Shown here: piece by piece, positions 2,492 through 46,065 of the stretch
How positions within the stretch are numbered: the first letter of the stretch is position 1
How the letters are laid out: each line of letters opens with the position of its first letter
Assembly (NCBI GenBank): GCA_903838415.1
Contig: CAILYI010000077.1
Coordinates: 1-64,000 of the forward strand
Length of the DNA: 64,000 bases
Direction: 5' to 3'
Source: an uncultured Anaerolineae bacterium
GTDB taxonomy: Bacteria; Chloroflexota; Anaerolineae; Anaerolineales; Villigracilaceae
Made by a program: the position numbers and the translations under genes
Notes under the pieces: generated by a model
What the model saw: only the letters and a program-made list of their open reading frames with translations
Database searches by the model: none
What the model was told of the DNA's origin: nothing

Positions 2492-5400
2492 CTATTCCGG
2501 GGCAATTCTTGTGCGGTAGTTCTGCCATTCAGCCTGTAAAGGCGCTTTTTGGAGCGAGCTTTCCAACTTTGCCAACAATTCATCGATACGGAGCTGGACC
2601 GGTTCAAGCTCAAGTCCCAACTGCCGGGAGGATTGTTCCACAATTCGCAGGCAGGATAATTCATACCAGGGCACTTGAAACTGGCTATATAGTTTAATGG
2701 AGGGCTGCGCCAGAGTCAGCGCGCGTTGGTAGTCGCCCTGTTTAAAGGCATGCTCCGCAATCATACGATTAAAATTGCCGGTCACGTCAATTTTGGCGCG
2801 CTCCAAGACGAGTTCCTTGAGCCATTTTGCGCGTTCTTCGAACTCAGCTTGTTCTCCGCGGATAAGGTGAACCGCTAATTGATTAAAGGTCCCCAAAATT
2901 GCGATTGAGCCCAGTTCACTCTCCCAGGCAGTGTTGATGGCCTGCGTGAGATAATGACGGCCGATTTCCTGCCCCATCAGCGTCAGGGTATAGCCAAAAC
3001 GATACATGTTTTCCAGGGCGACAAAGTGCTGGCCTGCCGCCGACATGCCTTGTTGATAGGCTTCGCTGGCTTTCTCGATGGCGCCAAGATGGAAATAAAC
3101 ATGACCGACAACCCGATACCCCAACCCGACAATCTCACCATGTCCCTGGCGGTAGCCAATCTCGATCGCTTTTTGGGCATGCTCCCAGGCGTCGTCCACC
3201 AGCCCCATTTCCGTTTCGCAGAAGGCCGCATAACTGCACAGATATCCGTACATGCGCCATCCATCCACGCGACTTGCCAGCTCAATGCCGCGCAGGCAGG
3301 CTTCAAGCCCGCTGGCATAGTTTGAGACTAAAAAATTGGCCAGTCCTATGACGCTATAAGCGACAATCTGTCCGTAGATATTGCGCGCCTGCTGTTGGGC
3401 TTGCAACGACTGCCTGGCATGTTCCAATCCAATCAAGGGATAACCGCGCAGTGTTTCGGTAATGGCCAGCTGGTAGAAACTGGTGCCCCGCTCAATCAGG
3501 GAGAAAAAATCGGCCGCACCTTGAGTGAGCTCCAGGGCGCGCAAAAAATAGGGCTGCGATTCGCGGATATGCCCGAGCATATACTCGTAGACGCCCCAGC
3601 GCTCGAGCGCGCGCGCTTTTTCGTAAGAATTGTCAGTTTTTTGCAGATATCCAAAGGCTTGTTGAACATATTCCAGCGCCTGACCAAACTGGTTACGGGA
3701 CATTTCCGCATCGCTCAGGCCTGTCAGGGCCGCACCAATCAACAGATTACTATTGAGGTCTTTTCCAAGGGTCTGCAGGGTCTGGTTGAGCGTTTCCAGC
3801 GTTTTAAAGTCGTCATTTTGAAAAGCGATTTCATTCCAAACCCGGTACATTTTGTAGATTTGTTCTTCGGTCACTTCACCAGCGCGCAGAATCAGGCGTT
3901 CGGCGCGGCGACAGGCATCCATCGCTTCGTAGGTGGACATCAGCCGCCAGGCATGCTCTGCCGCCAGGACCCAGGCATCAAATGCTTTGGAATGCATCCC
4001 GCCTTCTTCGAAGTGATAGGCCAATAAAGAGGCTTGCGAAATAATATTGGTGCTCAAGTAACTTTCCAATGCCAGCGCCACTTTGCGGTGCAGCAAGCGC
4101 TTGCGATTCTGGTTTAGTTGGAGCAGCAAGCCTTCGCGCAATTTTTCGTGGACAAACCCAAAAGAACCATTCCCTTTGTGTAAGGGATGAATGATGCGGG
4201 CCTGTTCCAATTCTTCGAGCGCCAGCAGATATTCGTCCGCTGAGAGCGAGACCGCGGCTTCGAGCATGGATATTTCAAACTGACTCCCCAGCACGACGGC
4301 AGTGATGATCACATCCCGTGCCGGGCGTGAAAGCGCATTAAATTTGCGCTGGATGGCGTCTGTGATGGAGAGCGGAATCGGGAGCGAAGCGACGTTTCCA
4401 AAATCGAGGTTGGGGTTTTCCTCCCAAAACGCTTGCAGGATTTGGATGGAGAAAAACTCGTTTCCGCCGGTATCCTGATATAGTTTTTCGACAAACTCTG
4501 GCGGCGCGGCGCGGGAAAAGGCAAAGTAGCACAACTCGGCCAGGTTTTCCCTGGTGAATAATTGCGTGTTGATGCGCCGCAGCTGTTCCGGATGAGGCGC
4601 CATCAGGAATTTATCGAGCATTGAATTTTTCTCTTCAGTCCGCGCGGAGAGGATTAACAGGCTGCGCCCCGGACGAAAGAATGACTTTTTCAGCAGATAC
4701 GAGACCAGCGCCAGGCTGGATTCATCCGCCCAGTGGGCATCATCCATAAAAAGGATGAGCATGTTTTTTTGCGTCAGATGGCTTAATAGCTGATAACCGG
4801 CTTCCATCAAAACGGTGCGCGGAATTTCGGAAGGTGGAAGATGTAGGTCGGTTCGGAGGGCGTGCAGTTCGGGGAAAAGCATGGACAGCGGCGCGGCCCA
4901 ACTGACATCCAGTTGGCGCCAATCTTCTTCAGACATGGAGGCACGCAGCAAGCTGACCCAGGGCGCGAAAGGCATGCCGGTTTCCAACGGCTGGCAGGAT
5001 GCCACCAACAAGCGTGTTCCGGCCCCCAAGCGACGGCAAAACTCATGCACCAGGCGGGTTTTTCCTGAGCCGCCATCGCCCAGGACGATCACAGCGCCGC
5101 CGCGTTTGCTGACGTTGATCAATTCAGTCAGCGCTTCTTTTTGTCCGATGAAGGGCACCGGCAGCCCGGGTTGAATGCTCCAATTGGGGTTTTCAGCGAT
5201 TGCGCTGACTGTATGGTGAAGTGTCAAGCGTGGCTTGAGCGCCAGAAGGATTTCAGGGATTTCCCCGTCTCCGTCAGCTTCATAGAGTGCCTTAACGGCT
5301 TCGTAATGTTCGCGAGCTTCAGAAGAGCGCTGCGCGTTTAGATAGGCTTCAATCAAATTGCGGTTCAGGGTTTCGCTGTATTCGTCAAATTCGAGGGCCT

Positions 5401-32190: not shown

Positions 32191-32365
32191 CTCTTATCCA
32201 GAGAGGCGGAGGGACCGGCCCTATGATGCCTCGACAACCGGTTAGGCTTCAGCATTTTGCTGATTCCTAAAATCGGTGCCAATTCCGACAGAAAACATCT
32301 GGGAGATGAGAGGGCAGCCGAGCCTCTGCGCAAAATGCCCTTTCAGTTTGACCGAGGGGCATTTT
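32191..32365 (+). promoter_or_regulatory. SAM-I (S-box) riboswitch with terminator, metK leader
   Basis: The aptamer (32191-32312) starts CTCTTATCCAGAGAGGCGGA and contains GGGACCGGCCCTATGATGCC, CTCGACAACC, GGTGCCAATTCC and the closing GATGAGAG, all core SAM-I elements. The expression platform follows: AAAATGCCC (32332-32340) with GGGCATTTT (32357-32365) can form a terminator-like hairpin. SAM binding should switch off metK, whose ATG is at 32384. Confidence 0.93.
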
Positions 32366-36030: not shown

Positions 36031-36188
36031 CTCTTATCCAGAGAGGCGGAGGGACCGGCCCTACGAAGCCTCGACAACCTGACCATTTCATGAGTCAAGG
36101 TGCCAATTCCGGCAGTACGATCTGGAAGATGAGAGGATGGTGAACGCGCGCAGCCTCTTCTTAACTTTCCGGAAGAGGTTATTTTTTT
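36031..36188 (+). promoter_or_regulatory. SAM-I riboswitch with terminator, metY leader
   Basis: The aptamer at 36031-36135 shares its first 32 bases with the metK riboswitch. It has CCTCGACAACC, GGTGCCAATTCC and closing GATGAGAG. Next, CCTCTTC (36154-36160) pairs with GAAGAGG (36172-36178) and is followed by TTATTTTTTT (36179-36188), a clear intrinsic terminator. SAM should stop transcription before metY (ATG 36236). Confidence 0.94.
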
Positions 36189-39028: not shown

Positions 39029-40258
39029 ATGACTCCCCGCTTCCTTTTTACTGTTATTCTGATTCTGGGTTTCTCTCTGACGGGTTGCGGCGCTCCAGCC
39101 CCGAGCCAAGCGACACTTACTGCCCCCACCGCCGCGCCGCTGACAGTTGCCACCGTCACAGTCAGCGCTCCTCAGCCCGCGCCGACCGACATCCCGCCGA
39201 CTTCCACCTCCGTCCTTGAACCGACGACCGTTCCCGCGCAAATCCCCGACGCCTCCGCTTACGTCTGGACGCCTGTCATCAACGGTCTGAACCATCCCAG
39301 CGACATCCAGTCAGCCGCGGATGGTTCAGACCGTCTTTTTGTGCTCGAACAACCGGGGCGGATTCGCATTTTTCAGAACGGCATTCTGCTCGAAAGGCCA
39401 TTTCTCGATATCACCGATCGCGTCGGCAGCAATGGCTCTGAGCAAGGGCTGCTTGGCCTGGCTTTCCACCCCAAGTTTGCGCAAAACGGCTGGTTCTACG
39501 TCAACTACACTGATTTTGACGGCAACACCCATATCGCGCGATTTACCGCCAGCGGCGACTCAGCTGACCCGGCCAGTGAAAAAAGTATCCTTTTTGTGCC
39601 GCAGCCCTTTCAAAATCACAACGGCGGCGCGCTTGCTTTCGGACCGGATGGTAATCTGTACATCGGCCTGGGTGATGGCGGCTCGGCGGGCGATCCTTAC
39701 GACAACGCCCAATCCGGCAATTCGCTGCTTGGCAAGATTCTGCACATTGACGTGGATCACGGCGAAGTCAACCCGGAAATTTGGGCGGCCGGTTTGCGCA
39801 ATCCCTGGCGCTTTTCCTTTGACCATTTGACCGGCGATTTGTGGATTGGCGATGTGGGACAGAATCTGTACGAAGAAGTTGATTTTGTCGCGGCAGGTAC
39901 GCCCGGCGGCTTGAACTTTGGCTGGAAAAAAATGGAAGGGAATCATCCCTATAAAGGCGGCAACCAACCGGAATTCACCGCACCGGTTGCCGAGTATTCG
40001 CACGCGGAAGGCTGCGCCGTCACTGGCGGGTATGTCTATCGCGGCGCGGCGCTGCCAGCCTGGCAGGGAGTTTATTTCTACGCTGATTACTGCTCCGGTA
40101 CAATCTGGGGTTTGACCAGTCCGCCGCTCAGCGTAATCCAACCAACAGTTTTGTTCCAAACCGCTTTCAAAATCAGCACTTTTGGCGTGGATGATGCCGG
40201 GGAGCTTTACCTGGCCGATTACACCGGCGCAATTTATCGGCTGGAGAAAATCCAATAA
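39029..40258 (+). CDS. PQQ-dependent glucose/sorbosone dehydrogenase-like lipoprotein
   Basis: The 409-aa protein has a lipoprotein signal peptide with lipobox LTGC near residue 20 and a Pro/Thr linker to about residue 75. A six-bladed beta-propeller of the GSDH family follows: GSEQGLLGLAFHPKFAQNGWFY, FQNHNGGALAFGPDGNLYIGLGDGG, AAGLRNPWRFSFD and WIGDVGQNLYEEVDF. Soluble PQQ aldose dehydrogenases have this fold, but many homologues act on unknown substrates. It is probably anchored outside the cytoplasmic membrane. Confidence 0.87.
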   Translation: MTPRFLFTVILILGFSLTGCGAPAPSQATLTAPTAAPLTVATVTVSAPQPAPTDIPPTSTSVLEPTTVPAQIPDASAYVWTPVINGLNHPSDIQSAADGSDRLFVLEQPGRIRIFQNGILLERPFLDITDRVGSNGSEQGLLGLAFHPKFAQNGWFYVNYTDFDGNTHIARFTASGDSADPASEKSILFVPQPFQNHNGGALAFGPDGNLYIGLGDGGSAGDPYDNAQSGNSLLGKILHIDVDHGEVNPEIWAAGLRNPWRFSFDHLTGDLWIGDVGQNLYEEVDFVAAGTPGGLNFGWKKMEGNHPYKGGNQPEFTAPVAEYSHAEGCAVTGGYVYRGAALPAWQGVYFYADYCSGTIWGLTSPPLSVIQPTVLFQTAFKISTFGVDDAGELYLADYTGAIYRLEKIQ

Positions 40259-40692: not shown

Positions 40693-41409
40693 TTAAAACC
40701 CCAGGAATGCGGCGATCTCGGTGCTGGCCGGGTTGGCGAAGACTTCCTGCGGGCTGCCGATCTGCACAATTTCGCCCTGCAGCATGACCGCCACGCGGGT
40801 GGCCAGCCTGGCGGCTTCCTTCAAATCGTGGGTGATCAGTACCGTGGTGGTGTTGGTCTCGTTCAGGATGGATTTCAAATCGTCGAGCAGGCGCAGGCGC
40901 GTGGGGGCATCCAGTGCGCTGAAAGGTTCATCGAGCAGGAGCAGTTCCGGATTTAAGACGAAGGCGCGGGCCAGGCTGACGCGCTGCGCCTCGCCCCCGG
41001 AGAGTCGCGCACCTGGGCGTTTGCTCAGGGATTCGATCCCCACCCGCGCCAGCCACTTGTTGACCCGTTCTTTAATCTCATCTGACGGGAGTCCGCGGTA
41101 GCGCAGGCCGATGGCGATATTCTCGAAGACCGGGGCATCCAGTAGCAGCGGTTCTTGCAGCACCAGCGCAATGCGTCGGCGGTACTCCAGCGGTTTCAGC
41201 GCCGAAAGCGGCATCCCGTTCCAGTGCAGATCACCTTTCTCGGGCTGGAGCAGGCGCGCCAGTGTCAGCAGCAGGCTACTTTTGCCGGTTCCGTTGGGGC
41301 CGATCACTGCCAGCACCTCGCCTTTTTCCAGGCTGAGGGCTTTTATTTCCAGCACCTGGCGTTTATCTCGACAAACGGTTAAATCGCGAATTTCGAGCAG
41401 GGTGGTCAT
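40693..41409 (-). CDS. Tungstate/molybdate ABC transporter ATPase (TupC-like)
   Basis: The 238-aa ABC ATPase has Walker A GPNGTGKSS, Q-loop LVLQEPLLLDAP, signature RLSGGEAQRVSLARAF, Walker B LLLLDEPFSALD and H-loop ITHD. It lacks the C-terminal TOBE domain found in ModC; a separate Mop protein is encoded upstream. It overlaps the permease gene as ATGA and is the last gene of the operon. Confidence 0.88.
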   Translation of the reverse strand: MTTLLEIRDLTVCRDKRQVLEIKALSLEKGEVLAVIGPNGTGKSSLLLTLARLLQPEKGDLHWNGMPLSALKPLEYRRRIALVLQEPLLLDAPVFENIAIGLRYRGLPSDEIKERVNKWLARVGIESLSKRPGARLSGGEAQRVSLARAFVLNPELLLLDEPFSALDAPTRLRLLDDLKSILNETNTTTVLITHDLKEAARLATRVAVMLQGEIVQIGSPQEVFANPASTEIAAFLGF

Positions 41410-42080
41410 CGCTGTTTGGCTCCCCGCTGCTGAATCCAGGTCAGCGCGTAATTGATGAGGAATGTAATCGTTAGCAAGAGTGCCCCAAGGATGATGGCGC
41501 GTTCAAATTCGCCTTTATTGGTTTCCAGGACAATGGCGGTGGTCAGCACGCGGGTCTGGCCTTTGATGTTGCCGCCCACCATCATGGAGGCGCCCACTTC
41601 GGAGATGACGGAGCCAAAACCGGCCATCAGCGCGGCCAGCAGCGGCAGGCGCGCCTCGCGCCAGAGCGTCAGCACCATCTGCGGGGTGGAGGCGCCCAAG
41701 CCGAGCAGCTGCAGCTGCAGGCGCGGATCCAGCTGTTGGAGCGCGGCGGACGTCAGCCCGGTCACGACCGGAGCGGCGATAATCGTCTGGGCGATGATGA
41801 TGGCGGAGGGCGTGTAAATGAGATGCAAATCGCCGAGAAACCCGGAGCGCCAGAGCGTCATGGCGACTGCCAGGCCAACCACGACGGGCGGCAGCGCCAT
41901 GCCCGTATTGATGATACTCAGCATGAACGACCTCCCGGGGAATTTTGCCATGGCGAGCAATGTTCCCAGTGGCAGGCCAATCACCAGGCTGATCAGCGTG
42001 GCTATCCCTGAGACTTTCAGAGATAGCAGGGTGACTTCAAGAACTTCAGGATCAGAGAAAAGGCTGTTTAATAAATCCAT
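41406..42080 (-). CDS. Tungstate/molybdate ABC permease (TupB-like)
   Basis: The 224-aa permease has five to six membrane helices and the EAA-type coupling loop (LGASTPQMVLTLWREARLPLL). It also has the TupB-typical FGSVISEVGASMMVGGNIKG. The family passes tungstate or molybdate oxyanions delivered by TupA. Its stop overlaps the ATPase start. Confidence 0.88.
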   Translation of the reverse strand: MDLLNSLFSDPEVLEVTLLSLKVSGIATLISLVIGLPLGTLLAMAKFPGRSFMLSIINTGMALPPVVVGLAVAMTLWRSGFLGDLHLIYTPSAIIIAQTIIAAPVVTGLTSAALQQLDPRLQLQLLGLGASTPQMVLTLWREARLPLLAALMAGFGSVISEVGASMMVGGNIKGQTRVLTTAIVLETNKGEFERAIILGALLLTITFLINYALTWIQQRGAKQR

Positions 42081-42116
42081 AATGGTGCATAGTATACGAG
42101 AAAGCGGTTAAAAATA

Positions 42117-42156
42117 GAAAGTGGAAAGCAGCCAATTTCATCTACTTTCCACTTCC
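42117..42156. repeat. Imperfect inverted repeat between tupA and tupB
   Basis: GAAAGTGGAAAGCAG (42117-42131) and the complement of GGAAGTGGAAAGTAG (42142-42156) match at 13 of 15 positions. The unit GGAAAGT recalls the AAGTAGA-rich repeat between metY and metA. It may fold in the mRNA and lower permease expression relative to the binding protein. Confidence 0.5.
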
Positions 42157-42179
42157 CCAGATTGTCCTTGAAACTGATT

Positions 42180-43139
42180 TTACTTCAAGCCGAGGTCGGC
42201 ATCGGTTTTGGTGGCGTCGCCGATGAACAGGGCCTGGCCGTATTTATCGACACCGAATTTGCCAATCACTTCCTGGGTGGCCGGGTCGGTCATGAATTTG
42301 CCAAAAGCCACGGCGCCCTCGTAATTGACTTTGGGCCACTTGGCCGGGTCAACGGTGATGACGTGATAGACATTCAAGAAGGCGTTGTTGCCTTCGAGCA
42401 GGATTTCCAGCTGGAGATTGGCTTTGTTGGCAAGGAAGGTGGCGCGATCGGTGAGGGTGTAGCCGCCTTTTTCGGATGCAATTGTCAGCGTGGGGCCCAT
42501 GCCCTGGCCGGTTTCCACGTACCAGGCGGGTTTCGTCCCGGCCGGATCGATAGCGGCTTTCTTCCAGAAATCGAGTTCCTTGGTGCTGGTGCCCGATTTG
42601 TCGGCGCGCGCGATGAAGGTGGCTTTGCCTTCGTCCCCGGCTTTGGCCATGGCAACGAACGCATCCTTGGGGCCGAGTCCTTTAATCGCGGCTGGGTCGC
42701 CGGCCGGGCCAACGATGATGAAGTCGTTGTGCATGATCAGCAGGCGTTCTTTGCCCCAACCATCGCTCATGAAAGTCTTTTCAGCGGCGGGCGAGTGGAC
42801 CAGCAGGACATCGGCATTGCCTTCCTGTCCCATCTGGATGGCTGCGCCAGAACCGACTGCGGTGGTCTTGACCTTGAATCCGGTCTGCTGTTCAAAGAGC
42901 GGAATCAGCACGTCGAGCAGGCCTGAATCCTGGGTGGATGTGGTGGTAGCCAGGATCAAATCAGGGTTGGCTGGGCCAGCCGGGACAGCGGTGGGCGGGA
43001 CAGCGGTCGGTTCGGCGGTGGGTGGGACTGCTGTTGGCGCGGCAGTGGGTTCCGGGGTGGCGGCTGGCGCGCAAGCGGAAAGCGCTACAGCCAGAACCAA
43101 GAACAGGGTTAGCAGGAAGTTACGGGTGGTGAGTTTCAT
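42180..43139 (-). CDS. Tungstate-binding lipoprotein (TupA-like)
   Basis: The product is 319 aa from ATG 43139 (AAAAGGAG upstream). A lipoprotein signal peptide with LSAC is followed by a Pro/Ala/Thr repeat linker to about residue 55. The TupA signature DLILATTTSTQDSGLLDVL comes next, with ADVLLVHSPAAEK and ADKSGTSTKELDFWK. TupA proteins bind tungstate with very high affinity and discriminate it from molybdate; specificity here is inferred from family resemblance. Confidence 0.9.
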   Translation of the reverse strand: MKLTTRNFLLTLFLVLAVALSACAPAATPEPTAAPTAVPPTAEPTAVPPTAVPAGPANPDLILATTTSTQDSGLLDVLIPLFEQQTGFKVKTTAVGSGAAIQMGQEGNADVLLVHSPAAEKTFMSDGWGKERLLIMHNDFIIVGPAGDPAAIKGLGPKDAFVAMAKAGDEGKATFIARADKSGTSTKELDFWKKAAIDPAGTKPAWYVETGQGMGPTLTIASEKGGYTLTDRATFLANKANLQLEILLEGNNAFLNVYHVITVDPAKWPKVNYEGAVAFGKFMTDPATQEVIGKFGVDKYGQALFIGDATKTDADLGLK

Positions 43140-43155
43140 CTTTTCTCCTTTTAGA

Positions 43156-43728
43156 TCAAATCTTTGGTGTTGTTCGACGGATGCCGAGCACGAATAACGC
43201 TCCGAGCAGTCCGCCAATTAGTCCGTAAAGAATATGGCTGGCAATCGGATAAACCACTCCAAAGCGGAAGGAGCCGTATGACCAACCGGAGAGGATGGTG
43301 ATGCCGAGTCTGATGACGGGCTTGGTGGCGTGCGCCAGCCCGCCGAGAATCATCAGGAACCAGAGTTTATCGGCGTAGCGCGGCAGGTAGCGGAAGGCGA
43401 TATCCATCAGCGGGCCGGGCACCAAATAAATCAGCCAGATGAAAGGATCGTTTGCGGCGCCCCAGCCTGGCAGCATCGCCAGCCCGGCTGCGCCGAGGCT
43501 GGCGATGCTGCCAGCGCCGCGGAAGCGCGAGAGGGAGCGGCCCATGATTAACAAGGCCATCCATTCAATGCCGTGGTGGCCGGGCAGCCCCAATGCCAGG
43601 CTGAAACTGCGGTGCAGAACCACCGCCAGCGCGCCGCTGCTGATCAGCAGCGCGGCTTCCCACCAGGTCAGCGCCCACTCAGTTGGAAAGGCTTTTGATG
43701 CGGTCTTTTGCGAGAATGTGCCATTCAT
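43156..43728 (-). CDS. Membrane protein of the Mo/W operon (ECF S-component-like)
   Basis: The 190-aa protein has about five or six hydrophobic helices (WWEAALLISSGALAVVL, then several to YPIASHILYGLIGGLLGALF). The general layout recalls ECF-transporter substrate-binding components, but no signature proves it. ATG 43728 has GGAGGAG upstream and the gene overlaps the TiaS-like gene by 50 bases, an unusually long coupling. Position just before tupA suggests a part in uptake or in cofactor-precursor transport. Confidence 0.6.
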   Translation of the reverse strand: MNGTFSQKTASKAFPTEWALTWWEAALLISSGALAVVLHRSFSLALGLPGHHGIEWMALLIMGRSLSRFRGAGSIASLGAAGLAMLPGWGAANDPFIWLIYLVPGPLMDIAFRYLPRYADKLWFLMILGGLAHATKPVIRLGITILSGWSYGSFRFGVVYPIASHILYGLIGGLLGALFVLGIRRTTPKI

Positions 43729-44407
43729 GATTTTGCTCCTCCACAAATAAGATAGCCTGGCCTCCGTGCAAAATGGGACGGACCCATTCGCCCACATTAA
43801 CCAGAGTTTCGGGGGATAAATTCGCACCGTCAATCGGACGGATGCCATCGATATGTCCATGCGCACAAATTTCAGTGACCGGATGGATGCCACTCAGGTC
43901 GCGCAGGCCGGGCAGCCACAAAAAACGACCATCATTGCCCGCATGGTGCAAACCCACCGCCGATAGCGCGCCGATGATTCCGCCGTGCGTGCCCGTCAGC
44001 CCTTGCAGGCGGATTTCATTAGCGAGGGCGGTTTGCTCGGCTTCAAGCTGAGTCAGAACCACCAGCTTGGCGCGCGCTCCAAAAGCGCGGATCGGCGCGC
44101 TGACCGCCTCCCATTTTGCCAGGCACAGACCGGCGTCAGAACCGGGGGCGCTTTCGCGCAGCAGGAATTCGCAGCAGGCGTTCCATATGGCCGTCTCGTT
44201 TTCCGGTACGGCGTCCACGTGCAGGCAGGCCGAACTATTGTGTGACGTGTATGGAATTTCGGGCGAGACGAGCAATTGGTGACGGGTGATGCCCAAAGGA
44301 CGGGCCAATCCATCCGCGCTGAGGCTTTCAGCCAGCTGACGGGCGCGATGCCCGGTGCCGCGGCTTTCGAGATTATCTGTATCGTCCACGCCGATTAAGT
44401 AGCGCAT
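43679..44407 (-). CDS. TiaS-like (DUF1743-type) protein in the Mo/W operon
   Basis: The 242-aa protein begins MRYLIGVDDTDNLESRGTGH, the hallmark N-terminus of TiaS, the archaeal tRNA(Ile2) 2-agmatinylcytidine synthetase. It also has LQGLTGTHGGIIGALSAVGLH. It is much shorter than TiaS and lacks the C-terminal OB and zinc-ribbon domains that bind tRNA. A different ATP-dependent role is therefore likely; the operon points to molybdopterin, Mo or W handling. The start overlaps the previous stop as TAATG. Confidence 0.7.
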   Translation of the reverse strand: MRYLIGVDDTDNLESRGTGHRARQLAESLSADGLARPLGITRHQLLVSPEIPYTSHNSSACLHVDAVPENETAIWNACCEFLLRESAPGSDAGLCLAKWEAVSAPIRAFGARAKLVVLTQLEAEQTALANEIRLQGLTGTHGGIIGALSAVGLHHAGNDGRFLWLPGLRDLSGIHPVTEICAHGHIDGIRPIDGANLSPETLVNVGEWVRPILHGGQAILFVEEQNHEWHILAKDRIKSLSN

Positions 44408-44868
44408 TATTTGACCTTGATCTCGCTGACATCCTTGGTCCAATTGGCTTTGGGGATGTAAGTGCTGGCGAGTTTGACGGTGCCGTGATTGTTGAAGTCG
44501 AGGATGGTGTTATCGTCCACCTGGGCCTTGGTCAATGTGGCCGGGCTGGAACTGCCGTTCAGGCTGACTTCGCTGAAATCGGTCACCCCGGCGGCTGTCA
44601 GGACGTCGCTGAGTTTGGGGCCTTCCTCAACCTTGCCATCGACCGTCAGATTTGCCAGCGGGAGCTTTTTCAGGTCATCCCAGGTCATTCCAAAACTGGA
44701 GCCGTCGGCTTTTACCACCTGAAATAGGGCAGTCGAGACGGGGGTGGGCTGAAGGGCCAGCGGAGTCTTGGGCGCAGTTTCAGCCGTGCTGGGTGTGGTG
44801 GTTGCTGCAGGCTGACAGGCAAAGAGCAAAAGGCTGCAAGCAAAGAGCAAAATATTCCTGAGTTTCAT
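44407..44868 (-). CDS. Lipoprotein with molybdopterin-oxidoreductase-like domain
   Basis: The 153-aa protein has a signal peptide with two successive LLFAC motifs and a Thr/Pro linker to about residue 45. A compact domain follows: MTWDDLKKLPLANLTVDG, EEGPKLSDVLTAAGV and STYIPKANWTKD. The pattern resembles the small helper or substrate-like domain of the sulfite-oxidase fold (GPxLxDVLxxAGV). It is too short to hold a complete cofactor site. It may bind a pterin or metal outside the membrane; this is inference. Confidence 0.65.
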   Translation of the reverse strand: MKLRNILLFACSLLLFACQPAATTTPSTAETAPKTPLALQPTPVSTALFQVVKADGSSFGMTWDDLKKLPLANLTVDGKVEEGPKLSDVLTAAGVTDFSEVSLNGSSSPATLTKAQVDDNTILDFNNHGTVKLASTYIPKANWTKDVSEIKVK

Positions 44869-44870
44869 CC

Positions 44871-45080
44871 CTAATCTACCCCAACCATAATGTTGGAGGC
44901 CTTGATGACGGCGTAGGCTTCTTTGCCTTCGGTGAGCGCCAGACTGTCAACGGAGCAATTGGTGATGATGGAAACAATCTGGGTTCCGCCGGGCAATTCA
45001 ATGGTCACTTCGGCGTTGACAGCGCCCTTGGTGATCTTGATGACTTTGCCTTTGAGAATATTACGGGCACTGAGTCTCAT
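44871..45080 (-). CDS. mop: Mop-type molybdate/tungstate-binding protein
   Basis: The 69-aa molbindin has a single TOBE/Mop domain: RLSARNILKGKVIKITKGAV, NAEVTIELPGG, and ending AYAVIKASNIMVGVD. Mop proteins form hexamers that store or buffer molybdate and tungstate in the cytoplasm. ATG 45080 follows AGGAG. It is the second gene of the operon and ends two bases before the lipoprotein gene. Confidence 0.92.
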   Translation of the reverse strand: MRLSARNILKGKVIKITKGAVNAEVTIELPGGTQIVSIITNCSVDSLALTEGKEAYAVIKASNIMVGVD

Positions 45081-45090
45081 GGGAATTCTC

Positions 45091-46065
45091 CTATAGTGGG
45101 ATTTGTTCACCGCTGTGGGCGGTGTTATAACCTGTCAGTGTGTTGAGCTCGCGGCGGAAGGATGCGGTTTGCAGGTGATCGAGCAGCGGCCCAACCAGTT
45201 TGGCCCGTTCATCCGGGATGATCAAGTCGTAACGTTCTTCAAATAAGGGGATAAAGTCCAGCTGATATTCTCGCGCCGCGGCCTGGATGCCGATCGTGGC
45301 GTCGGCTGTGCCCACATCGATGGTTTTGGCCGATTCACTGTGAGTGTGGACAAAATGTTCGTAGCCTCGGATCAAGCTGACGGGGAGATTAATCCGGCTG
45401 AGTTCTTTGTCGAGCCAGAGTCGAGTCCCGGAGCCGGGATTCCGGTTGACAAAGGTCACGTCTTCGCGGGTCAAGTCTTCCAGTGCTTTAATGCCTTTGG
45501 GATTGCCTGGTGCAAGAATTAATCCTTGCGTTCGATAAGCCAATGTGACCATTGAAACGGGGCGATCGGGGAACAGGTGACGCACAAAGGGGGTGTTGTA
45601 TTCGCCGCTCGAGTCGAGCAGGTGTGCCCCGGCGATGTGGCACAACCCCTGGCGCAGGTTGATCAGACCATCCAGTGAACCGACCGGCAGGGTGAGCACG
45701 GTGATGTGCCGAGAGAGTTTACTGGCGATGTGTTCCAGCGCGGTATCGTGACTGCCCGAGAAAATGATGACGGGTTTATCGCTCTGGGGCAGGATGAGTT
45801 CCTGTAAAAGCAAGGCCGATGCTTTGGCGCGGTAGAATTTTTCGGTGACGCCGTTGGTGATTTTGATTTCAGTGATTTCAATCAGCCCGGCGGCTTCGAG
45901 TGTTTTGATGTGATGCCGTACCCAGGCCGGGGATTCGCCCATAGCGGCCCCGAGTTGGGTGAGCGTGGCGGAATCAGCCATGAGCCGGCGCAGGATGGTC
46001 ATACGGTGCGAATCGGCCAATATTTTGATCTGTTCAAAGGCGTGCAGGGTTTGAATTTTTTCCAT
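45091..46065 (-). CDS. ArsR-type HTH fused to a PBP-like domain, probable Mo/W regulator
   Basis: The 324-aa protein has a winged helix (about 8-80, ILADSHRMTILRRLMADSAT and ESPAWVRHHIKTLEAAGL). A periplasmic-binding-protein-like domain (about 95-315) follows, with FSGSHDTALEHIASKL, NRNPGSGTRLWLDKEL and GTADATIGIQAAA. The second part is the PBP-like fold found in molybdate-linked regulators and cofactor proteins. As first gene of the operon it is the likely sensor, repressing or activating uptake when oxyanion or cofactor is bound. Confidence 0.82.
   Translation of the reverse strand: MEKIQTLHAFEQIKILADSHRMTILRRLMADSATLTQLGAAMGESPAWVRHHIKTLEAAGLIEITEIKITNGVTEKFYRAKASALLLQELILPQSDKPVIIFSGSHDTALEHIASKLSRHITVLTLPVGSLDGLINLRQGLCHIAGAHLLDSSGEYNTPFVRHLFPDRPVSMVTLAYRTQGLILAPGNPKGIKALEDLTREDVTFVNRNPGSGTRLWLDKELSRINLPVSLIRGYEHFVHTHSESAKTIDVGTADATIGIQAAAREYQLDFIPLFEERYDLIIPDERAKLVGPLLDHLQTASFRRELNTLTGYNTAHSGEQIPL

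Follow-up and report, generated by a model that had tools for sequence, protein, structure and literature searches.

A TiaS-type kinase-domain protein and a membrane protein recur as a gene pair, a candidate uptake cassette in molybdenum and tungsten gene neighbourhoods

A short protein with the kinase domain of TiaS (TIAL) and a membrane protein (MEM) recur together as a gene pair, and on balance we favour the reading that the two form an uptake cassette for a Mo- or W-related solute in which TIAL acts with ATP; TIAL probably helps in the uptake of something needed for Mo/W enzymes. The pair was met in a 64,000-nucleotide stretch of an uncultured Anaerolineae contig (the window), where the original prediction had joined it with a lipoprotein (LIP) as an undescribed module for metal or pterin handling. 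An undescribed module for Mo/W-related solutes remains the best reading, but the recurrent unit is TIAL with MEM. The only Mo/W importers known to us are oxyanion ABC importers, and the pair suggests a route linked to Mo/W metabolism that is TonB-fed or ECF-driven. Neither TIAL, MEM nor such a route is described in the portions of the open-licence PMC literature that were consulted. A widespread family (351 relatives in one pattern scan), which has no curated model of its own in Pfam or NCBIfam, thereby gains a testable function.

In the window, the predicted eight-gene Mo/W operon at 40693-46065 is confirmed, with all genes on the minus strand in the 5' to 3' order REG, Mop, LIP, TIAL, MEM, TupA, TupB and ABC ATPase (Table 1). 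Packing is as tight and overlapping as had been described: the LIP stop and TIAL start have one base in common (TAATG), TIAL and MEM overlap over 43679-43728 with GGAGGAG preceding the MEM ATG, and the TupB and TupC genes share 4 bp. Mop scores 91 bits against TIGR00638 (cut-off 55). The TupABC assignment is a family-level one, because the equivalog scores do not separate W from Mo. The full gene order is repeated in three loci of named Anaerolineae/Chloroflexi records (L043, L045 and L049), and two more (L044 and L047) have the same genes except for a Mop match; the operon is thus more than a chance arrangement.

Table 1. Genes of the Mo/W operon in the window
Gene	Product	Coordinates	Strand	Basis or remark
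REG	regulator, 324 aa	45091..46065	-	ArsR-type HTH + PF12727 PBP-like sensor domain (206 bits)
Mop	molbindin-type oxyanion-binding protein, 69 aa	44871..45080	-	TIGR00638 + PF03459 above cut-off
LIP	lipoprotein, 153 aa	44407..44868	-	possible distant SUOX-fold (Oxidored_molyb) relative; no Pfam match of its own
TIAL	TiaS-type kinase-domain protein, 242 aa	43679..44407	-	without tRNA-binding domains
MEM	membrane protein, 190 aa	43156..43728	-	ECF S-component-like; 50 bp overlap with TIAL
TupA	TupA-type oxyanion-binding lipoprotein, 319 aa	42180..43139	-	PF12849; NF041772 222 bits (cut-off 400)
TupB	TupB-type permease, 224 aa	41406..42080	-	NF038017 above cut-off; NF041773 155 bits (cut-off 320)
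TupC	TupC-type ABC ATPase, 238 aa	40693..41409	-	PF00005

The likeness of TIAL to TiaS, proposed from the sequence, is upheld by structure and by conserved catalytic positions. The AlphaFold model has a pLDDT of 91.9, and its nine PDB matches at E <= 0.001 are TiaS without exception; they cover residues ~1-157 at 20-27% identity over 152-160 alignment columns. TIAL possesses the fold of the TiaS TCKD kinase domain with its Asp cluster and Thr18, a residue with a role in TiaS, together with the IGxDDTD positions and an IGALAAVG-type motif; D8, D9, T10, D11 and G17 occur in 99/99 alignment rows and T18 in 98/99. The tRNA-binding domains are absent, as had been claimed: the matches stop near residue 157 of 242, Pfam and NCBIfam TiaS models match residues 1-153 only, the NF040849 model is covered over just positions 1-152 of 422 at 23.6 bits (cut-off 600), and the Ferredoxin-like, OB and Zn-ribbon domains of TiaS (agmatine, tRNA) were found neither among the structure matches nor with NCBIfam. 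In contrast to TiaS, the C-terminal ~85 aa of TIAL match none of its other domains.

The idea that TIAL came from archaea and modifies tRNA(Ile2) can be given almost no credence, genuine as the kinase-domain homology is, and was rejected, since the tRNA-binding domains are missing and TilS was found in 19/20 TIAL genomes. Because of that TilS distribution TIAL is no substitute for tRNA(Ile2) modification; its genomes do not combine it with the lack of tilS that would signal such a need, and its gene context, unlike that of TiaS, consists of Mo/W genes. Among curated NCBIfam models, methanogenesis marker protein 11 (TIGR03280) gives the lowest E for window TIAL and for 6/6 further TIAL proteins (5.8e-8 to 3.5e-15), and the domain is apparently shared with that protein; however, only profile positions of about 133-286 of 292 are matched, with scores of 32-56 bits where the cut-off is 255.8, and the TIAL hosts scanned are bacteria and one haloarchaeon.

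The association of TIAL with MEM was followed in 80 named loci, the best-scoring of the 351 relatives and possibly unrepresentative of them, with frame-wide HMM searches for MEM, LIP and TIAL (the gene caller behind the neighbour clusters is crude). The record titles include Bacteroidota, Proteobacteria, Cyanobacteria, Actinomycetes and Clostridia, and TIAL also lies on two haloarchaeal plasmids, so that the family, for which a neighbourhood analysis across Chloroflexota had been proposed, is present there but not special to them. Where the locus left room (77 loci), 65 have MEM downstream of TIAL on the same strand and no more than 600 bp away, two have it 3.2 kb onward with ABC ATPase and EcfT-like genes in between, and one has it as a divergent neighbour; the search did not find it in nine. 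The match to the MEM profile starts 43-61 bp ahead of the TIAL stop in 62 of the 65, and the conserved N-terminus of MEM may be partly a product of this gene overlap. In a class sample MEM occurs in 10/298 genomes, all ten of which belong to the 20 TIAL genomes (P 1.4e-13 on the assumption that genomes are independent), and in an overlapping phylum sample in 7/400, six of them with TIAL. The seventh carries a broken MEM and keeps REG, LIP and TupABC, with TIAL not found, and is a remnant in an operon that lost TIAL. Only half of the class TIAL genomes (10/20) have MEM, and these together with the nine loci lacking it mean that TIAL can occur without detectable MEM.

MEM, a membrane protein left unassigned at first, is still a membrane protein but now most resembles ECF S-components, below firm significance. 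The top Foldseek match is the S-component YkoE (5edl; probability 1.00, TM 0.61/0.58) at E 0.022, with none reaching E 0.001, and ThiT and RibU are also in the list, where unrelated membrane proteins rank between S-components. At the sequence level, the MEM profile matches 5edl at E 0.0062, ranked under four spurious antibody matches; PF09819 is matched by 7/37 MEM members and NCBIfam by none of the 37, and window MEM has no Pfam or NCBIfam match at E 0.1. EcfA and CbiQ-type EcfT are co-encoded with the cassette at some loci in Chloroflexota and Clostridia, including L037 (PF02361), with CbiQ matches at the L035 place and, by coordinates, L119. MEM nevertheless differs from the YkoE/PF09819, ThiT and RibU components in being a new sequence family linked to TIAL, one that occurs without detected EcfT in 19 of 37 genomes tested, among them 19 of the 21 from Bacteroidota and Proteobacteria. 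The window's own genome has four CbiQ matches, none on this contig. A cobalt ECF is the subject of PMC13119186.

The Mo/W setting of the original prediction extends well beyond the window. A Mo/W gene lies within 3 kb of TIAL in 44 of the 80 named loci, so that the gene is not mostly found outside such clusters, a TonB receptor gene within 3 kb in 42, and one or the other in 63; none of the ten scored Mo/W families lies within 3 kb in 36. Neighbours of the pair are TupABC, ModE, molybdenum-storage, AOR or Moco genes, and both the Mo/W and the TonB families decay with distance from TIAL. The neighbour families are represented by profiles built from gene clusters and were identified from one member each (TonB receptor, AOR, ModE), by similarity to genes of the window or of L037/L031 (TupA, TupB, Mop, REG, Moco), or by eye (ModA/WtpA). 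Co-occurrence with AOR was set aside as evidence, since 240/298 class genomes have AOR, every one of the 20 TIAL genomes among them, which makes it little informative.

It is conceivable, though rather doubtful, that TIAL is an ATP-dependent accessory for tungstate or molybdate, for example in charging the storage protein MoSto or gating MEM, with MEM as a channel for oxyanions or metal chelates. TupABC, Mop, ModE and REG as neighbours fit this, as does a MoSto-type gene, whose one tested member is a molybdenum storage protein relative (E 7.6e-74). This gene groups within ~1 kb of TIAL in 7/20 class loci (the window and 19 that were fetched) and is also matched in L081, L121 and L140. Against it, the MoSto-type gene is matched in only 2/80 named loci, the TiaS domain is known as a kinase domain and not as a metal-oxyanion binder, and small free oxyanions should not need a TonB receptor.

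Rfam scans of the window and of 28 author-chosen loci among the 80 place an RF01055 Moco/W riboswitch ahead of TIAL in L118 and L119, again ahead of LIP-MEM in the same two, and ahead of LIP-TIAL in L114. These three of 28 are Clostridia/Bacillota, two of them near relatives; the window has no RF01055. To our knowledge neither TIAL, MEM nor the TonB receptor is part of a described TupABC/Moco-riboswitch system. The window resembles that regulon in its TupABC neighbours, and the three relatives in their riboswitch, but the three components are not among the parts described in the excerpt of PMC3766115. The riboswitches bear on a further alternative, in which the cassette would take up an unrelated vitamin-like compound and the hosts' use of Mo/W enzymes would be a coincidence. 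It is suggested by the likeness of MEM to YkoE, the HMP/thiamine component; in fold and in sequence MEM comes nearest to YkoE, ThiT and RibU. Fourteen of the 80 loci have neither scored Mo/W families nor a TonB receptor within 9 kb of the sequence covered, although the riboswitch is present in three of these and a MosA-like gene in two. We consider this alternative quite unlikely, because three loci have a Moco riboswitch ahead of the genes, a thiamine riboswitch was reported in none of the 28 scanned, ModE-type and PF12727-type regulators adjoin TIAL, and the cassette lies within TupABC operons.

In the favoured reading of TIAL and MEM as an uptake cassette, MEM would carry a solute across the inner membrane, and cytoplasmic TIAL, acting as a working kinase, would use ATP on what MEM brings in, most likely phosphorylating or activating it and so leading to trapping or processing. 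Most of the tested genomes of Bacteroidota and Proteobacteria are without EcfT, so that uptake there may be driven by trapping through TIAL; a TonB-dependent receptor gene is often beside the cassette in these groups. Over 64 loci, the start of a TonB receptor gene lies within 300 bp past MEM in only 13. Energy for MEM would come from EcfA/EcfA'/EcfT in some Chloroflexota and Clostridia. In the window the cassette is embedded in a TupABC oxyanion operon whose first gene is REG, with its periplasmic-binding-protein-like sensor domain. The PDB relatives of the TonB receptor gave no answer as to its substrate, siderophore, haem and B12 receptors matching alike.

TiaS activates a carbonyl of a pyrimidine ring, and pterins contain that ring too. 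A conceivable but rather doubtful elaboration by analogy is salvage of the Mo/W cofactor or its pterin, whereby the TonB receptor and the S-component would import a pterin or a metal-pterin/metal-chelate complex and TIAL would phosphorylate what is imported. Cofactor salvage by such a pathway would be new in kind and, as far as we know, the first small-molecule job for the TiaS kinase fold; we know of no description of Moco salvage in bacteria, which would become directly testable if the solute is a pterin. Pterin auxotrophy was rejected as proof of salvage, because 35/37 genomes have a match to the MoaA C-terminal domain (33 over cut-off; partial in several Bacteroidota), 15/18 have MoaC and 17/18 MoeA, and most of the TIAL genomes tested encode their own pterin synthesis. 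The MoaA domain was not matched in G327 and G329. MoaC was not matched in G328, G329 and the genome of the window, but is present in G327 and in G331, which carries the near-identical locus L118. Missing sequence is the likelier cause of these gaps, and this argues against simple salvage in place of synthesis. PMC12282271 contains the suggestion that cobalamin or molybdopterin may be taken up with the help of some T11SS outer-membrane proteins.

LIP is a lineage-limited partner of TIAL-MEM: no more than 16 of the 80 named loci have it at a distance of 400 bp or less from TIAL. Of its earlier description as a molybdopterin-fold lipoprotein, the lipoprotein part stands but the fold call rests on weak PF00174 (Oxidored_molyb, SUOX fold) matches of relatives, two of 24 alignment members with a best value of 9.4e-5; window LIP has no Pfam or NCBIfam match at E 0.1, and a comparison with PDB sequences gave nothing useful. 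A C-terminal extension of TupA in L037 matches PF00174 at 1.1e-7.

Eight genes run along the minus strand of the window in the order REG (a regulator joining an ArsR-type HTH to PF12727), Mop (a molbindin-type oxyanion-binding protein), LIP (a lipoprotein of 153 residues), TIAL (a TiaS-type kinase-domain protein of 242 residues), MEM (a 190-residue membrane protein resembling ECF S-components), TupA, TupB and TupC, and on re-examination both the coordinates and the gene order of the original prediction proved correct. From REG through TupA, neighbouring genes either overlap or are separated by 2-16 bases; the TIAL/MEM overlap is 50 bp, and a GGAGGAG motif lies upstream of the MEM start. TupA and TupB score below the tungstate equivalog cut-offs, and these scores do not separate tungsten from molybdenum.

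Coordinates of the operon and of other features discussed in the text
Feature	Record	Strand	Position
Eight-gene operon, REG to TupC	window	minus	40693-46065
Lipoprotein gene beside the operon	window		39029-40258
SAM riboswitch	window	plus	32191-32312
SAM riboswitch	window	plus	36031-36135
Divergent TIAL/MEM, Pimelobacter chromosome	L111		8244-9717
TIAL, Natribaculum plasmid	L132		7947-8705
Broken MEM remnant	L133 (G602:C7:403000-413000)		about 5090-5367

TIAL had been described as a TiaS-like protein devoid of tRNA-binding domains, and both parts of that description hold. An AlphaFold model built on an alignment of 18 relatives is confident (pLDDT 91.9), and a Foldseek search with this model gave nine PDB chains at E ≤ 0.001, every one of them TiaS, over 152-160 columns. 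In a profile alignment D8, D9, D11 and T18 fall on the same-numbered residues of TiaS, T18 being the autophosphorylated residue of that enzyme; over 100 aligned TIAL rows, D8, D9, T10, D11 and G17 are present in all 99 rows having a letter, and T18 in 98 of 99. Neither fold nor profile comparison matched the ferredoxin-like, OB or zinc domains of TiaS in TIAL. Curated family libraries returned only weak, sub-threshold matches confined to residues 1-155, including methanogenesis marker protein 11 (E 9.8e-11) and TiaS (E 1.7e-5). The former (TIGR03280) is the best curated match of the TIAL family, an indication that the kinase domain of TiaS is also present in this protein of methanogens. That TIAL might itself be a tRNA enzyme, serving a genome that needs tRNA(Ile2) modification for want of TilS, was rejected, because TilS is found in the window's own genome and, with that genome counted, in 19 of the 20 Anaerolineae genomes with TIAL, the exception being a 91% complete draft.

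TIAL occurs in 20 of 298 Anaerolineae and 12 of 400 Chloroflexota genomes (the two samples overlap), and a single scan of the named collection gave 351 relatives, the best-scoring 80 of which, mostly from draft bins, constitute the named loci. By record title their hosts are Chloroflexota, Bacteroidota, Gamma-, Alpha- and Betaproteobacteria, Cyanobacteria, Actinomycetes, Clostridia/Bacillota and others, and TIAL is found in two haloarchaeal plasmid records too. On one of the two, a Natribaculum plasmid, TIAL and an ABC importer with an iron-type annotation are divergently oriented; the importer's binding protein is similar to those for iron complexes and also, weakly (E 7e-8), to HI_1472, the molybdate-binding MolA.

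The usual partner of TIAL is MEM. Among 77 named loci (three of the 80 lack downstream room), MEM lies on the same strand within 600 bp downstream of TIAL in 65, lies 3.2 kb beyond it in two (L118 and L119), with ABC ATPase and EcfT-like genes between, is the divergent neighbour in one (Pimelobacter), and was not found in nine that had downstream room. In 62 of the 65 same-strand loci the match to the MEM profile starts 43-61 bp ahead of the TIAL stop, position here meaning the start of the profile match, with the start codon itself inspected in the window; because the genes overlap, a share of the N-terminal conservation of MEM may stem from TIAL. The divergent Pimelobacter pair is present both on the chromosome and on a 3.8-kb plasmid record (L131). 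All ten MEM-bearing genomes of the class sample of 298 are among the 20 with TIAL (hypergeometric 1.4e-13, assuming independent genomes, which they are not). MEM is undetected in the other ten, so that TIAL can occur without a detectable MEM; because only a restricted set of first-look candidates was scored in the genome searches, some matches may have been missed. MEM is present in seven of the 400 phylum genomes, six of which also have TIAL. In the seventh (L133), from the same family, MEM is a broken remnant and TIAL has no match at the locus, which retains REG, LIP, two TupA, TupB and TupC; this naturally occurring case points to MEM being retained only where TIAL is present and to an accessory role for the pair beside TupABC.

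The MEM model (pLDDT 90.9) has as its best fold match the ECF S-component YkoE (5edl; TM 0.61/0.58, probability 1.00, E 0.022), with ThiT at ranks 5, 8, 9 and 11, RibU at rank 28, and unrelated membrane proteins of lower TM-score between. The MEM profile also reaches 5edl at E 0.0062, ranked below four spurious antibody matches. PF09819 was matched by seven of 37 MEM members, three further Pfam matches were chance-like and limited to single members, and NCBIfam matched none of the 37. ECF partners accompany some loci: the cassette of one Anaerolineae locus (L037) contains a double ABC ATPase together with an EcfT of the CbiQ type, CbiQ matches occupy the corresponding gene place in L035 and, judging from the coordinates, also in L119, and paired ATPase matches adjoin TIAL in seven of 19 class loci (L030, L031, L033, L034, L035, L037 and L042). 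Of 37 TIAL genomes searched for EcfT, whose completeness is not stated, 19 lack it, and these 19 are drawn from the 21 Bacteroidota and Proteobacteria in the set; there MEM must act alone or with another partner.

The original prediction placed TIAL in a Mo/W context, as against a gene occurring mostly outside such clusters, and the neighbourhoods bear this out. With family profiles for ModE, REG, TupA, TupB, Mop, ModA/WtpA, AOR, MoaA, MoaC and MoeA, a Mo/W gene lies within 3 kb of TIAL in 44 of the 80 named loci, a TonB receptor in 42, and either in 63; in 13 of 64 loci the receptor gene begins no more than 300 bp beyond MEM. Both signals decay with distance in the 39 loci having 7 kb on each side, Mo/W genes from 23 loci (within 3 kb) to seven (4-7 kb) and TonB receptors from 19 to two. 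One member of the ModE cluster matched PDB ModE (E 3e-9), a molybdenum-binding repressor (E 7e-12) and TIGR00637 (E 4.7e-24, below the model cut-off). In L037 an amino-acid-kinase gene close to TIAL proved to be a relative of molybdenum storage protein (E 7.6e-74), and its cluster recurs in seven of 20 class loci (19 plus the window) and two of 80 named loci. An Rfam scan of 28 named loci and the window placed the Moco/W riboswitch RF01055 upstream of TIAL in two closely related loci, L118 and L119, which have second copies ahead of LIP-MEM, and upstream of LIP-TIAL in L114; L050 has one copy and L077 a cobalamin riboswitch, both distant from TIAL. No Moco riboswitch was found in the window. 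Counting against the Mo/W link, fourteen of the 80 named loci show no scored Mo/W or TonB family in the available DNA within 9 kb; these include the RF01055 loci L114, L118 and L119, two with a MosA-like gene (L081, L121) and five with LIP close by (L052, L053, L063, L072, L114). In seven of 80 loci (for example L084, L085, L092 and L097) the genes found up to 3 kb from TIAL include a PpnP-type nucleoside phosphorylase. A lipoprotein-like family (cluster 3), without a Pfam match in the one member tested, lies within 3 kb in 24 of 80, and in Bacteroidota loci such as L055, L056 and L061 stands between MEM and the TonB receptor.

An uptake cassette is the simplest account of TIAL-MEM and the TonB receptor. 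In Bacteroidota and Proteobacteria the receptor would be the entry point for a solute at the outer membrane, the S-component-like MEM would import it across the inner membrane, and TIAL would spend ATP on it in the cytosol. EcfA and EcfT, where present, would power MEM; elsewhere trapping of the solute by TIAL could drive uptake, much as in kinase-coupled carriers. Its regulators and riboswitches connect the cassette with Mo/W or a Mo/W cofactor, and possible solutes are a pterin, a metal chelate or the bare metal. The cassette would not be replacing absent cofactor synthesis, since most TIAL genomes tested encode MoaA (35 of 37), MoaC (15 of 18) and MoeA (17 of 18). The genome from which the window comes gave three matches each for MoaA-type proteins and MoeA but no MoaC match; sequence is possibly missing. 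No description of the cassette was found in the open-access literature searched; it combines known kinds of components in a new way and is not a categorically new system. Finally, the lipoprotein encoded beside the operon, which resembles soluble sugar dehydrogenases, has a homologue in locus L024, and in five named relatives homologues judged by eye (cluster 21) come after the cassette.
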